Assembly: GCA_003480725.1 (NCBI GenBank) | Contig: QUJQ01000001.1 | Coordinates: 186,001 to 250,000 of the forward strand | Length of the DNA stretch: 64,000 bases | Source: Clostridiaceae bacterium AM27-36LB | Lineage (GTDB): Bacteria; Bacillota; Clostridia; Lachnospirales; Lachnospiraceae | Direction: 5' to 3' | Shown here: piece after piece, positions 1-13,932 of the stretch | Layout of the letters: each line of letters begins with the position of its first letter | Numbering within the stretch: the stretch's first letter is position 1 | Notes under the pieces: model-generated | Told to the model about the DNA's origin: nothing | The model's input: only the letters and a program-made list of their open reading frames with translations | The model's database searches: none | Made by a program: the position numbers and the translations under genes

Positions 1-1637
1 AAGTGAAGCGGGTAACAGAGCTAGGCGAGGCGGAAAGCATTTTTGCAAAGGCAGCAGACCAGGATCGCCTGGCGTTTGAAATCTGTCAGTCCAAGGATGA
101 ATTTGGCATCTCTCTGGCACTGTCCGAACAGGAAGTTTATTATTTGGCAGCAGAAGGATTTCTGACCGAGGAATACCTGACAGATCATATGACACAAGTG
201 GTGGAACAGGTGCCTTTGTGTGCGGCTTCGGACGTGAAAAAACTGTTGAAAATGGTTCATCCGGTACACAGAGAGCATTTCTTCGATATTGAAATTGCAG
301 CATATCTGATCAATCCGCTGATCAGCAGCTACGCACATGAGGATCTGGGAACACCTCATGCGGCATTGACCACGTTGAAAAAACTGCCGGAATTATTGAA
401 TAAGCTTGATGAAATGGAAATGCGCTCTTTGTTTGATGAGGTTGAGATGCCATTGGTATTTACCTTGTTTGATATGGAGCAGGAAGGGATGCGAGTCAAT
501 GCAGAAGAACTGAAAGCATATGGCGAAGCACTGGTGGACAAGATCAGTGCATTGGAAAAGAGCATTCATGAGGCAGCGGGAGAAGAATTCAATATCAATT
601 CCCCAAAGCAGCTTGGTGTGATCCTGTTTGAAAAGCTGGGCATGAAGGGTGGTAAGAAGACCAAGACCGGTTATTCTACTTCTGCGGAAGTGCTTGATAA
701 ACTGGCACCGGAACATCCGATAGTTCGGGATATTCTGGAATACCGACAGCTTACCAAATTAAAATCCACCTATGCAGATGGCCTGGCAGGATGCATTGCA
801 GCAGATGGTCGGATTCATAGTAGTTTCAATCAGACGATTACGGCAACCGGTCGGATCAGCAGTACAGAGCCGAATCTTCAGAATATTCCGGTTCGTATGG
901 AACTGGGACGTCTGATCCGAAAGGTATTTATTCCATCGGATGGTTATGTATTTGTGGATGCAGATTACTCTCAGATCGAACTGCGTGTGCTGGCACATAT
1001 GTCAGGTGATGAGAAGCTGATCGAAGCTTATAGACAGGCAGAGGATATTCACCGGATTACAGCTTCTCAGGTATTTCATGTGCCGTTTGATGAAGTAACA
1101 CCACTTCAGAGAAGAAATGCAAAAGCAGTAAATTTTGGAATTGTTTATGGCATCAGTTCCTTTGGCCTGTCGCAGGATCTGAGCATTTCTACGAAGGAAG
1201 CAAAGGAATATATTGACCGGTATTTTGAAACTTATCCTGGAATCAAGGTATTTCTTGATAAGCTGGTACAGGATGCAAAAGAGCAGGGATATGTGACTAC
1301 CATGTTTGGAAGACGCAGACCGGTGCCGGAACTGAAATCTTCTAATTTTATGCAGCGTTCCTTTGGTGAACGTGTAGCTATGAACTCTCCGATCCAGGGT
1401 ACGGCTGCAGATATTATCAAGATTGCCATGAACCGGGTTCATGACCGTCTGCTAAGAGAAGGGCTGGAGTCCCGCCTGATCCTTCAGGTGCACGATGAAC
1501 TTTTGATAGAAGCAAAATTGTCGGAAGCAGATCAGGTGGAGCAGATCTTACGGGAAGAGATGCAGCAGGCGGCAGATCTTCAGGTTCCGTTGGAAATTGA
1601 TCTGCATAGAGGAAATAACTGGTATGAGGCGAAATAA
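1..1637 (+). CDS. polA: DNA polymerase I, C-terminal part (5' end outside window)
   Basis: Replicative repair and Okazaki-fragment polymerase, cut by the left edge: about 544 residues of a family usually near 880. Polymerase motifs are intact: motif A DYSQIELRVLAH about 320 visible residues in, the O-helix RRNAKAVNFGIVYG about 370, and motif C QVHDELLIE about 495. The stretch before the polymerase domain corresponds to the 3'-5' exonuclease fold but looks degenerate: where active enzymes have a D-x-E start (FDTET) I read AFEICQ, so proofreading is probably lost, as in Bacillus-type Pol I. The 5' nuclease domain would lie upstream. The frame is open to base 1, so the GTG at base 3 is an internal codon. 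coaE starts at the next base after the stop. Confidence 0.96.
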   Translation, partial: VKRVTELGEAESIFAKAADQDRLAFEICQSKDEFGISLALSEQEVYYLAAEGFLTEEYLTDHMTQVVEQVPLCAASDVKKLLKMVHPVHREHFFDIEIAAYLINPLISSYAHEDLGTPHAALTTLKKLPELLNKLDEMEMRSLFDEVEMPLVFTLFDMEQEGMRVNAEELKAYGEALVDKISALEKSIHEAAGEEFNINSPKQLGVILFEKLGMKGGKKTKTGYSTSAEVLDKLAPEHPIVRDILEYRQLTKLKSTYADGLAGCIAADGRIHSSFNQTITATGRISSTEPNLQNIPVRMELGRLIRKVFIPSDGYVFVDADYSQIELRVLAHMSGDEKLIEAYRQAEDIHRITASQVFHVPFDEVTPLQRRNAKAVNFGIVYGISSFGLSQDLSISTKEAKEYIDRYFETYPGIKVFLDKLVQDAKEQGYVTTMFGRRRPVPELKSSNFMQRSFGERVAMNSPIQGTAADIIKIAMNRVHDRLLREGLESRLILQVHDELLIEAKLSEADQVEQILREEMQQAADLQVPLEIDLHRGNNWYEAK

Positions 1638-4724: not shown

Positions 4725-4753
4725 TTGACAGTATGCACAGAATGATATAAAAT
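4725..4753 (+). promoter_or_regulatory. Sigma-A promoter of the cobalamin riboswitch transcript
   Basis: TTGACA (4725-4730), 17-nt spacer, TAAAAT (4748-4753). It is near-consensus, predicting a start about base 4760, some 16 nt before the first riboswitch helix. It fires away from the UPF0210 gene toward the structured RNA and the 5155-5215 terminator. Confidence 0.8.
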
Positions 4754-4775
4754 AAAAATGTGCAAAGAATGCTGT

Positions 4776-4951
4776 GTCAAGTGCGTATCGACAAGTTTGA
4801 TACGAAAAGGGAATCAGGTGTAAGTCCTGAGCGATCCGGTCACTGTGTTCGGAGAGTCTGTTTTCAATATCCCATTGCATAACCCAATCATGATACATGT
4901 GAGAAGGGGAGGACAGACGTTTGTATCCGTAAGTCAGGAAACCTGCTTGGC
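4776..4951 (+). ncRNA. Cobalamin (B12) riboswitch
   Basis: Hallmarks of the cobalamin riboswitch are visible. The conserved core GGGAATCAGGTG.AAGTCCTGAGCG and CCGGTCACTGTG is at about 4810-4850, a GAGAAGGG peripheral element at about 4901, and the B12 box AAGTCAGGAAACCTGC at 4931-4946. Closing helix P1 pairs GTCAAG (4776-4781) with CTTGGC (4946-4951). A CGTATC/GATACG hairpin sits just inside P1. It would normally control cobalamin synthesis or transport genes, but no protein gene follows on this strand before the terminator at 5155-5215. Confidence 0.9.
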
Positions 4952-4954
4952 ATA

Positions 4955-5110
4955 TGAGATGAGCTTCCGAGCAAAGCTTAACATCCGACAGCCGGGAACG
5001 AATGGCGCGTGCCCGACTTGAAACGTCGACTTGTGGGTTAAGGCGGCATTTTTGATGAGAATCTCTAAGCAGTGATGCACAAACATATATTGTCGGATGA
5101 TCATGCATAG
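4955..5110 (+). ncRNA. Structured RNA tail downstream of the B12 riboswitch
   Basis: Non-coding stretch between the riboswitch and the terminator. A long-range 8-bp helix joins CATCCGAC (4982-4989) to GTCGGATG (5092-5099). Inside or near it are GAGCTT/AAGCTT, CGGG/CCCG, CGAC/GTCG and GCAT/ATGC helices, consistent with a multi-branched RNA. The longest ATG frame is 20 codons (from 4959) with no good RBS. From memory, this sequence resembles a conserved element that gives spurious short ORFs in many clostridial genomes, but I cannot name the family from sequence alone. Confidence 0.6.
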
Positions 5111-5154
5111 CCTCCATAAAACATTTGCATGAGAATGGCGCATCTGACAGCTTC

Positions 5155-5215
5155 ACGTAAAACCCCTCCGGGCGCAGGTTTCCTGAACACCCTGCCTCCC
5201 GGAGGGGTTTTACGT
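5155..5215. terminator. Bidirectional terminator
   Basis: Long perfect inverted repeat: ACGTAAAACCCCTCCGGG (5155-5172) and its complement ending at 5215, with an inner GCAGG/CCTGC hairpin. A TTTT run follows the stem on each strand. It ends the riboswitch RNA on plus and the KdpE-like gene on minus. Confidence 0.9.
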
Positions 5216-5920
5216 TTCATCTTCATCCACCATCCGGTACCCAACTCCGATTTCTGTAAAGATATACATCGGCTCTGAAGGATTAGGCTCCAGCTTTCGT
5301 CGGATATTTGCCATATGTACACGGAGACTGGTGGTATCATTCTCGGAATAGGGTCCCCACACATGGACAATGAGCCGGTCATAAGTGAGCACCTGTCCGC
5401 AGTTTTGAGCTAGTAGAGAGACAATCTTGAACTCATTCTGGGTCAGGTGAATCTCAGCACCGTCCCGGGTGATGAGCCGCTTCTGAAAATCAATGATAAG
5501 TCCATGACTCCGATAAGGATGGTTAGTTTGTCCAGTATCAGTCTTCAGACGGTTTACATGGCGAAGCGCAGTACGGATCCTGGCTAACAGTTCTGAATTG
5601 CCGAAGGGTTTGGTAATATAATCATCGGCACCGGAATCCAGCGCCAGCACTTTATCATCCTCCTGAACCCGGGCAGAGATTACAAGAATCGGTGTATCAG
5701 ACCACTCGCGGATCTTGCGGATAATCTCCATACCATCCATATCAGGGAGGCCGAGATCCAACAGGATCAGATCAGGAGAAGCGGAAGCTGCCTGACTGAG
5801 CCCGTCCCGTCCGGTTAGGGACGAGATGACCTGATAGTGCTGGGAATTCAGCACAGATGTAATAAAGTTCTGAATATTTTTCTCATCTTCGATGACCAGA
5901 ATCCGAATGTTCTGACTCAT
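5210..5920 (-). CDS. KdpE-like response regulator (OmpR family)
   Basis: A 236-residue OmpR-type regulator. The receiver domain starts IRILVIEDEKN, has the phospho-acceptor in LILLDLGLPDMDG (about D53) and the conserved Lys in DDYITKPFG. A winged-helix DNA-binding domain follows (HLTQNEFKIVSLLA, RVHMANIRRKLE, GVGYRMVD). The closest family is KdpE, which controls potassium transport genes. The start is the ATG at 5920 with a strong RBS (AAAGGAGGCG); an upstream in-frame ATG at 5971 lacks one. It overlaps the kinase gene by 38 nt, so the two are coupled. No kdpFABC transporter genes lie in the window. Confidence 0.88.
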   Translation of the reverse strand: MSQNIRILVIEDEKNIQNFITSVLNSQHYQVISSLTGRDGLSQAASASPDLILLDLGLPDMDGMEIIRKIREWSDTPILVISARVQEDDKVLALDSGADDYITKPFGNSELLARIRTALRHVNRLKTDTGQTNHPYRSHGLIIDFQKRLITRDGAEIHLTQNEFKIVSLLAQNCGQVLTYDRLIVHVWGPYSENDTTSLRVHMANIRRKLEPNPSEPMYIFTEIGVGYRMVDEDET

Positions 5921-11806: not shown

Positions 11807-13303
11807 GTGGCAAAAGCGATTATGATACAGGGAACCATGTCTAATTCAGGAAAAAGCTTCCTGACAGCAGGATTGTGCCGGGTATTTAAGCAGGACGGAT
11901 ACAAAGTGGCACCGTTTAAATCACAGAACATGGCACTGAATTCCTATATTACAAAAGATGGTCTGGAGATCGGACGGGCACAGGCCATGCAGGCGGAGGC
12001 CTGTGGCATCGACCCGACGGTAGAGATGAATCCGATTCTTCTGAAACCGACCAGCAATGTGGGAAGTCAGGTCATTGTAAATGGCGAGGTCCGCGGCAAT
12101 ATGAAGGCTATGGATTATTACCGCAATAAAAAGCAGCTGGTGCCGGATGTGATGGCTGCCTATGAAAGATTAAGCGAACAGTATGATATTATTGTGATCG
12201 AAGGAGCCGGAAGTCCTGCAGAAATCAATCTTCATGACAATGATATTGTAAATATGGGAATGGCGCGCATGGCGAAAGCACCGGTACTCCTGGTGGGAGA
12301 TATTGACCGTGGTGGTGTATTTGCAGCCCTTTATGGAACGGTAAAGCTGCTGCCTGAAGATGAGCAGCAGATAATCAAAGGTCTGATCGTCAATAAATTC
12401 CGTGGGGATGTGAAGATCCTTGAGCCAGGTCTTCGGATGATCGAGGAGCGAACAGGGATTCCTATGGTAGGTGTGGTTCCTATGGAGTATCTGGATATTG
12501 ATGATGAGGACAGTCTCTCTGACCGTCTGAATCAGACTCAGAAGGGAGCTGGCATTGATGTGGCAGTGATCCATCTGCCGCATATTTCCAATTTTACAGA
12601 TTTTTCCGCATTTGAGCGGATGGACGGGGTATCCCTCCGTTATGTAAGTCAGCCGGGAATGCTGGGGGATCCAGATCTGATCCTTCTGCCGGGTACGAAA
12701 AATACCATGGATGACTGCCAGTGGCTCAGAGAGTCCGGCATGGAAGCACTGATCCTCCGCCAGGCAGAGAAGAAGACGCCGATCATCGGTATCTGTGGTG
12801 GATTTCAGCTTCTGGGTGAACAGATGGAAGATCCGCATAATGTAGAACATGGAGGAACCATGCGTGGCATGGGACTTCTGAATACAAGAACCGTTTTCTC
12901 AGAAGCAAAGACCAGAACTCAGATCCGCGGAGTGATGGAAAAGGGCGTGGGTCTTTGGAACAACTGGCAGGGAAAAGAAGTAACAGGTTATGAGATCCAT
13001 ATGGGTGTGACTGAGAATCTGGGAGGTTGTCAGGAACTGGTCCGTCTCGAGGATGGAAGAGTGGATGCACTGGCTAATGAAGACGGAAGTGTGATGGGAA
13101 GTTATCTTCATGGTATCTTTGATACGGATGGATTTGCGGAGGAAATGATCCGCAGATTGATGAAAGAAAAAGGCATGGAGTTTGAAAACTGGCATTTTGA
13201 TCTGGAAGCTCACAAGGAGCAGGAATATGACAAACTGGCAGATCTGGTCAGAAGCTCGTTTGATATGAAGAAAATATATGAAATACTGGAGGAGGGAATC
13301 TGA
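11807..13303 (+). CDS. cobQ: Cobyric acid synthase
   Basis: Amidates the b, d, e and g carboxylates of adenosylcobyrinic acid a,c-diamide using glutamine and ATP. The 498-residue product has the N-terminal dethiobiotin-synthetase-like nucleotide site ([16 protein letters not shown]), the [12 protein letters not shown] core and a C-terminal glutamine amidotransferase domain with nucleophile Cys in [12 protein letters not shown] (about residue 329). The GTG start is preceded by GAGGTGA. Its stop overlaps the next ATG (TGATG). Only this gene and cbiC of the cobalamin pathway are in the window. Confidence 0.95.
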
Positions 13304-13932
13304 TGCTGGATAAAATTGAGATTGTAAAACCTACGGAGATAGAGAAACGAAGCATGGAAATTATTACATCGGAGCTTAATGGCAGAACCTGGCCGGAGCC
13401 TGAGTTTTCTATTGTAAAACGATGTATCCACACATCCGCAGATTTTGATTATGCGGATAATCTGTGTTTTTCTGAAAATGCGGCTATGCTGGGTGTGGAA
13501 GCACTCCGCCGTGGTGCGGTGATTGTGACGGATACCCGTATGGCATGGTCAGGGATCAACAAGAAAAAACTGGCAGAGTATGGCGGCGAGGCATTCTGCT
13601 TTATGTCGGATGCAGATGTGGCACAGGAAGCGAAAGACAGAGGCTGTACCCGTGCAGCTATCTGTATGGAACGTGGAGCAGCACTGGGAAAAGAAGTAAT
13701 CTTTGCGGTTGGCAATGCGCCGACAGCACTGATCCGTCTTTATGAGCTGATAAAGGCAGGAGAGATAAAACCTGCGCTGATCATTGGTGCACCTGTAGGA
13801 TTTGTCAATGTGGTGGAAGCAAAAGAGCTGATCATGACAGCAGGGATTCCTTATATTGTTCCGAAAGGACGCAAAGGCGGAAGCAATATTGCAGCGACAA
13901 TCTGCAATGCCATGCTGTATTATAAAGGATAG
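13303..13932 (+). CDS. cbiC: Precorrin-8X / cobalt-precorrin-8 methylmutase
   Basis: Moves a methyl group from C-11 to C-12 in the corrin ring, giving (cobalt-)hydrogenobyrinate. The 209-residue product has the CobH/CbiC features: RCIHTSADFDYADNL with the conserved His, GAVIVTDTRMAWSGI, and the ALIIGAPVGFVNVVEAKE C-terminal core. Overlap with cobQ (TGATG) implies translational coupling. The CbiC name assumes the anaerobic pathway, which suits an anaerobe. Confidence 0.94.
   Translation: MLDKIEIVKPTEIEKRSMEIITSELNGRTWPEPEFSIVKRCIHTSADFDYADNLCFSENAAMLGVEALRRGAVIVTDTRMAWSGINKKKLAEYGGEAFCFMSDADVAQEAKDRGCTRAAICMERGAALGKEVIFAVGNAPTALIRLYELIKAGEIKPALIIGAPVGFVNVVEAKELIMTAGIPYIVPKGRKGGSNIAATICNAMLYYKG

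Follow-up and report, generated by a model that had tools for sequence, protein, structure and literature searches.

The cobalamin (B12) riboswitch found near one end of the analysed stretch of DNA (64,000 nt, hereafter the window) is followed by a conserved, structured RNA and not by a gene. Comparison among relatives established the RNA family, its structure, a U-tract after its hairpin P3 and the absence of a gene, and both the family and its structure can be regarded as nearly certain. We propose, at somewhat better than even chances, that this RNA is a riboswitch-gated, trans-acting small RNA (sRNA) of Lachnospiraceae-type bacteria, which would block the translation of a corrinoid protein when B12 is absent.

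Identification of a cobalamin riboswitch without a downstream gene

The features that delimit the RNA in the window are as follows.

4725..4753, + strand: σ70-type promoter, TTGACA-17-TAAAAT, matching the consensus at 11 of 12 positions
4762..4964, + strand: cobalamin riboswitch aptamer (RF00174, 93.7 bits)
about 5155..5215, + strand: final terminator with a strong stem in the MFE and centroid folds, flanked by an A-run and a T-run

The RNA was compared in 25 members, namely the window, 16 sequences from the nearest genus sampled (that of G002, hereafter the genus) and eight others. The promoter, which the initial annotation had called near-consensus, places the transcription start site near position 4760 by estimate. 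The form TTGAC[AT]-16..18-TAnnnT was present in 23 of the 25 members; the promoter of G412 deviates (TTGACG with TATAAT), and no consensus promoter was found in G394. The 5′ domain belongs to the cobalamin riboswitch family RF00174, and cobalamin binding is predicted for it. The match in the window covered the full model (1-189) with an E value of 5.3e-22 and a score far above the gathering score of 31.5, and all nine relatives scanned also exceeded the cut-off. The initial reading of a well-formed B12 riboswitch whose transcript ends at a strong terminator was thus confirmed.

The longest reading frame lying wholly between the end of the riboswitch and the outer terminator of the window comprises 20 codons. 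Of two longer frames, one (49 codons, 5129-5278) exits through the outer terminator and the other (58 codons, 4845-5021) falls largely within the aptamer. No conserved gene was found between the riboswitch and the terminator in any of the 25 members, in which the longest frame wholly inside the RNA ranged from 8 to 61 codons. Only short frames, or none, followed a Shine-Dalgarno-like site, apart from those in G409 (114 codons) and G403 (at least 300 codons); these two frames overrun the terminator and have no counterpart in near relatives, for example G322 and G402. The earlier statement that the riboswitch has no downstream gene therefore holds for the window and for the other members compared.

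Genes encoding ACT and DUF711 proteins are located upstream of the RNA in the window. On the downstream side, in convergent orientation, a KdpE/KdpD-like pair encodes a response regulator and a histidine kinase with a DUF4118 domain, and the 3′ end of the Response_reg/Trans_reg_C gene on the opposite strand overlaps the RNA only at the terminator. Elsewhere in the window (11807-13932), genes for a cobyric acid synthase-like protein (GATase_3/CbiA) and CbiC were observed. B12 synthesis is thus at least partly encoded by the host.

Structure and covariation of the 3′ domain

The approximately 200 nt located 3′ of the riboswitch are, as judged by comparison of sequences, a conserved and covarying structured RNA with the following elements.

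4955..4960, + strand: 5′ strand (UGAGAU) of a long-range helix, Plong (RNAalifold)
4956..4986, + strand: hairpin H1, directly 3′ of P1, with the base GAUG 4958-4961/CAUC 4982-4985 and the loop CCGAGCA
4991..5017, + strand: hairpin P2, with the loop motif GAAUGGCGC (5000-5008) and two-sided changes in 6 of 9 pairs
5061..5065, + strand: 3′ strand (AUCUC) of Plong (helix UGAGAU/AUCUCA; RNAalifold)
5090..5150, + strand: covarying helices P4 (5090-5098/5142-5150) and, within it, P5 (5101-5107/5126-5132)
5133..5141, + strand: second copy of GAAUGGCGC, flanked by the 3′ strand of P5 on one side and that of P4 on the other (alignment)

In the window, the segment 4960-5225 (266 nt, terminator included) folded better than 200 of 200 shuffled sequences (z -4.2). 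The RNAalifold consensus of the genus alignment, which was built from 15 of the 17 sequences of the genus after the near-duplicates L040 and L047 had been set aside, contained 66 pairs. The partners could pair in 94.5% of the cells, compared with 36-52% when the partners were slid. Two-sided changes occurred in 33 of the 66 pairs, and the cells with such changes numbered 128, against 35.6 ± 5.3 in shuffled alignments and 9-20 in the slid controls.

The upper stem of H1 covaries (three of five pairs, 10 members), and its base, GAUG/CAUC, is invariant among these. Plong was kept as 5-7 bp in all 25 members without two-sided changes; it encloses H1, P2 and P3, and is followed by P4/P5 and then by the terminator. 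Neither the H1 base nor Plong shows two-sided changes, and the support for both comes from conservation. These two elements share one strand and are mutually exclusive. When the H1-base and Plong states were each forced on the 3′ domain, they differed by at most 3.9 kcal/mol in 12 of 12 members tested (for G181, the first AUCUC site was used), and these calculated energies suggest a two-state RNA. Folded freely, the 3′ domain of the window adopted neither state: the predicted structure was a third one, lower by 4.3 kcal/mol than the more favourable of the two. The pairing CAUCCGACAG/UUGUCGGAUG in the free fold of the window was rejected, since inspection by eye indicated that it is not kept in relatives.

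Both copies of GAAUGGCGC in the window, one in the P2 loop and one at the P4/P5 junction, are flanked by helices. GAAUGGC in the second copy was invariant in the 15-sequence alignment, and AAUGGU replaces AAUGGC in the first copy of L047 (G403). Loops resembling GAAUUCCGCA were seen in several distant members. The apical UCCUGA of the terminator was likewise invariant in the 15 aligned sequences, and the lower stem of the terminator changes by compensation.

Distribution of the RNA

Among 397 genomes of the family sampled, the RNA was detected in nine by BLAST followed by the H1 hairpin pattern; the reversed pattern gave no hits. A covariance model built on H1-P2-P3 was used for the genus-level counts and found the RNA, as a single copy each, in 16 of the 17 genomes of the genus, in two of the three genomes of the genus of G206, and in the one genome of the genus of G252. 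A class-wide search matched 2 of 391 genomes, both already members, and this count is a lower bound because stricter filters were applied. L022 was rejected as a chance match, having no riboswitch. Searches of plasmid DNA gave no match to the RNA, and those of phage DNA gave one 42-nt match to the aptamer.

In L002, whose kinase is 78% identical to that of the window, the riboswitch adjoins the equivalent gene and the sequence after the riboswitch is 80% identical. Repeated ORFs beside the RNA of L002 (9485-11065) resemble, by eye, Rpn/PD-(D/E)XK transposase-family proteins. The copy of G394 (L030/L233) lacks the U-tract, CCUCC and the consensus promoter, and therefore appears to be decaying. 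G411, the only genome of the genus without the RNA, also had no ANTAR protein and no corrinoid protein match at 1e-40; it is perhaps incomplete or an outlier. No Rfam family was found for the 3′ half at E values up to 10, the seven weak matches including five miRNA models on the terminator stem. We recognized no published report of this RNA in the open-licence library that was searched.

Inner terminator and proposed direction of the switch

5025..5054, + strand: hairpin P3 (5025-5047) and U-tract, proposed B12-controlled intrinsic terminator (comparison)

P3 is followed by ATTTTTG in the window, forming an inner terminator-like hairpin that is absent from the initial annotation. At least five T residues occurred within the 8 nt after P3 in 23 of the 25 members, the exceptions being G412 and G394, whereas only 3.6% of the 8-mers in the RNA reach this number. 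It is therefore likely that P3 acts as an inner terminator controlled by B12. Outside the genus, the longest match of ACAUC in H1 was with GRUGU in the 5′ strand of P3 in six of the eight members, and ACAUC/G(A/G)UGU is a plausible antiterminator there, which would exclude both the H1 base and P3. Accordingly, we would expect B12 to end transcription at P3, and this is the proposed direction of the switch. The same comparison of pairings across the 25 members gave no consistent antiterminator among those of the genus.

Putative anti-Shine-Dalgarno seed and its candidate target

5111..5117, + strand: proposed anti-Shine-Dalgarno seed CCUCCAU, located in the loop of P5 and without a pairing partner in the consensus of the genus

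CCUCC, which is complementary to Shine-Dalgarno sites, occurs 3′ of P3 in 24 of the 25 members, all except G394. The seed of the genus is CCUCCAU or CCUCCAA within the P5 loop, and the RNA outside the genus reads AUACCUCCUU or AAUUACCUCC. A search of the genus for the B12-binding domain PF02310 gave matches in 16 of 17 genomes at 45 places, which were reduced to 30 loci; 29 of these were used, L078 (a 552-aa frame) being omitted. The candidate target is a corrinoid protein of approximately 211 aa whose gene adjoins that of a methyl-THF:corrinoid methyltransferase. The protein resembles MtgC/MtbC-type models below their cut-offs (TIGR02370, 213.2 against 215.3). Of the 14 corrinoid genes of the genus that matched best, 11 have AUGGAGG before the start, the exceptions being those of G400, G408 and G412, and no such sequence precedes the remaining 15 B12-binding loci that were inspected. 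The background was 5 of 271 genes with crudely assigned starts. These Shine-Dalgarno sites are orthologous, and common ancestry limits their independence as evidence.

A screen for AWATGGAGG before an ATG with an ORF of at least 50 aa was performed in nine of the 11 AUGGAGG-positive genomes. The corrinoid gene was recovered in nine of nine by construction, because the genomes had been chosen among the positives. The matches read were all those of G322, G402 and G404 and a few loci of the other genomes, among them a minority of the 60 matches of G401. In G322, 35 of 40 matches had an ORF of at least 50 aa, and of the 34 genes other than the corrinoid gene only rpsB clearly shared the site with an orthologue of the other clade among the matches read, which shows that sharing of such a site is rare; rpsB carries the pattern without a link to B12. 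ABC proteins of G322 and G404 also clustered and were taken for paralogues by eye. The FtcD (cyclodeaminase) genes of G402 and G404 (L105 and L194) share AUAUGGAGGAAAU before the start, and the sequence farther upstream differs. FtcD is a possible second target.

Outside the genus, where both partners have changed, the seed and the corrinoid gene were complementary over 11 bp in G252, 11 bp in G142 and 10 bp in G413. The G142 gene is 51% identical to the query and is therefore perhaps a paralogue. The corrinoid genes of G028, G015, G060 and G052, genomes with no RNA match, reached 5-7 with every seed. Complementarity was poor in G400 and G408 (5 bases each), G412 (6) and G206 (7), and the gene compared for G408 is possibly not the true orthologue. 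The corrinoid genes of G252 and G413 are each about 2 kb away from the RNA, and among the genes of the region retrieved they have the longest complement to the seed (11 against 8 for the next gene in G252, and 10 against 7 in G413). The four best matches of the G252 seed included the antisense strand of an sRNA locus and a [2Fe-2S]-type gene (G029). The neighbourhood of the RNA, up to about 9 kb away, contains S-methyl_trans, Pterin_bind, RACo/AcsV, FTCD_C and FolD genes. Judged by eye, a FolD or FtcD gene is no more than about 5 kb distant in five of the eight non-genus genomes, and hydrogenase-type genes adjoin the RNA in G181 and G348.

A clade-level permutation of the match between seed and target, in which 10 of 18 genomes served as representatives, gave p values of 0.042 (run) and 0.038 (energy). 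Inside groups, seed and target do not show a fine match: the G406 seed reached 15 with start regions of other clades against 8 with its own, and the G206 seed reached 12 with the G413 gene against 7 with its own gene. No corrinoid match at 1e-40 was obtained in 5 of 10 RNA-bearing genomes (G029, G348, G394, G405 and G001); therefore, either other targets exist or the target is wrong. In addition, the 64-kb window gave no tblastn match to the corrinoid protein. At the same threshold, 37 of 59 genomes without a known RNA have a match, and the gene is thus independent of the RNA. Taken as a putative target, the corrinoid mRNA is assigned with moderate confidence.

Alternative explanations

The most serious alternative, which we consider less likely than the main reading, is that the conserved, B12-switched RNA acts by another route, such as protein binding through the duplicated GAAUGGCGC or the terminator loop, or pairing with other mRNAs. 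The two invariant copies of AAUGGC and the invariant UCCUGA loop in the 15 aligned genus sequences would suit such a role, as would the presence of AUAUGGAGG at the FtcD genes of G402 and G404 and the several RNA-bearing genomes without a corrinoid gene. On the other hand, the seed and the start region of the corrinoid gene change together between groups, and genes of corrinoid and one-carbon metabolism are found linked to the RNA.

Conservation of CCUCCUUC through back-pairing with GAAGGAG of the riboswitch core is improbable. Such pairing is feasible over 7-8 bp in G348, G252, G181 and G413, and GGAGG, the partner of CCUCC, occurs in the aptamer of several genus members, but only 4-7 bp are available in the 17 genus members with the seed CCUCCAU or CCUCCAA, and AGAAGG sits in a part of the aptamer that is conserved regardless.

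Sequestration of an ANTAR antiterminator in the manner of Rli55 and EutX has very little in its favour. ANTAR proteins were found in 15 of 17 genus genomes and, as noted above, not in the RNA-less G411. However, G001 bears the RNA without an ANTAR match, and outside the genus ANTAR proteins are equally common in genomes without the RNA (44 of 48) and with it (8 of 8). Dual ANTAR hairpins are described as having a hexaloop with A1 and G4 (PMC3369931, in the passages on this motif); tandem hairpins with A..G.. hexaloops occurred in three of the 25 members, against 1.8 expected.

An equally slim chance attaches to a cis element that would influence the convergent kdpE, either through overlap at the terminator or by antisense transcription. 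Of 16 genus loci, 14 have a kdpE homologue in the downstream flank that was retrieved. The RNA nevertheless persists in G322 and G001 and at the eight non-genus loci, in whose retrieved flanks no kdpE match was found apart from a 28% identical stretch in G206, and the overlap in the window is confined to the terminator.

A relic of a lost B12 transporter gene, as offered in the initial annotation, or of any B12-regulated gene retained by chance, might be read from the missing gene and the decayed appearance of G394, but this was rejected, with hardly any probability left to it, because the site holds no conserved gene in any of the 25 members and covariation in the 3′ half is strong, as the pairing and the 33 two-sided pairs given above attest, in an RNA kept as one copy in 16 of 17 genomes.

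Proposed mechanism and comparison with known systems

The other suggestion of the initial annotation, a B12-controlled regulatory RNA, agrees with the conserved structure, the RNA's own promoter and terminator, the inner terminator and the lack of a conserved gene in the 25 members. In the mechanism that we propose for the riboswitch-gated sRNA, binding of B12 would allow P1 and the H1 hairpin to form and the P3 terminator to fold, so that transcription would end approximately 287 nt past the start, upstream of the domain that holds the seed. Without B12, read-through to the outer terminator would yield an RNA of approximately 455 nt. The P4/P5 domain of this full RNA would show CCUCC in a loop, and pairing of CCUCC with the Shine-Dalgarno region of the corrinoid-protein mRNA would block its translation. 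We infer this base pairing, its target and the resulting repression from complementarity between sequences. The outcome would be a 'cofactor-sparing' response, in which the apo-protein is not made when its cofactor is absent. In its fullest form, the proposal is a B12-sparing regulator in one molecule, combining a riboswitch with a trans-acting anti-Shine-Dalgarno sRNA, that would silence corrinoid-dependent methyl transfer (in the Wood-Ljungdahl or methionine branch) at low B12 in gut Lachnospiraceae, its seed and target varying in concert from group to group; we hold this tentatively, at close to an even chance.

To our knowledge, only a handful of riboswitches that control noncoding RNAs are known. 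Two modes of action are described in the relevant passages of PMC8079631: AspocR pairs antisense with pocR, and Rli55 titrates EutV. If the proposal is true, a riboswitch-gated sRNA family with a short pairing seed, retained across a genus (16 of 17 genomes), would represent new wiring.

According to the same passages, AspocR of Listeria is a 1,400-nt antisense RNA of pocR preceded by a B12 riboswitch, at which B12 causes premature termination; without B12, the full RNA represses pocR, probably at translation initiation, and action in trans is possible (PMC8079631). The present RNA resembles AspocR in that a riboswitch is followed by a noncoding RNA and a terminator without a gene, as found in 25 members. 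In contrast, it is only approximately 455 nt long and highly structured, and its pairing would take place through a short anti-Shine-Dalgarno loop. Furthermore, the opposite strand carries the 3′ end of the Response_reg/Trans_reg_C gene and not a pocR-like gene, so the antisense part of the likeness to the pocR-antisense RNA drawn in the initial annotation does not apply.

EutX is a noncoding output of a eut-linked B12 riboswitch at which transcription terminates prematurely with B12. The same arrangement is described for Rli55, which carries EutV-binding ANTAR elements and acts by titrating EutV (PMC8079631, passages on Rli55). The earlier likeness to the eut-linked RNAs thus stands as an idea and fails in detail, as the ANTAR hairpin pair of Rli55 and EutX is not conserved in the present RNA.

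RyhB and FsrA are iron-sparing sRNAs under the control of the protein Fur. The logic that we propose is similar, in that users of a cofactor would be repressed at scarcity by pairing at translation starts. If this is true, B12 metabolism gains a counterpart of the iron-sparing response, in the gut, where B12 is contested. The present RNA would differ from RyhB and FsrA in that the sensor lies within the RNA itself, and it differs from ordinary RF00174 riboswitches in that its output is an RNA and not a gene.
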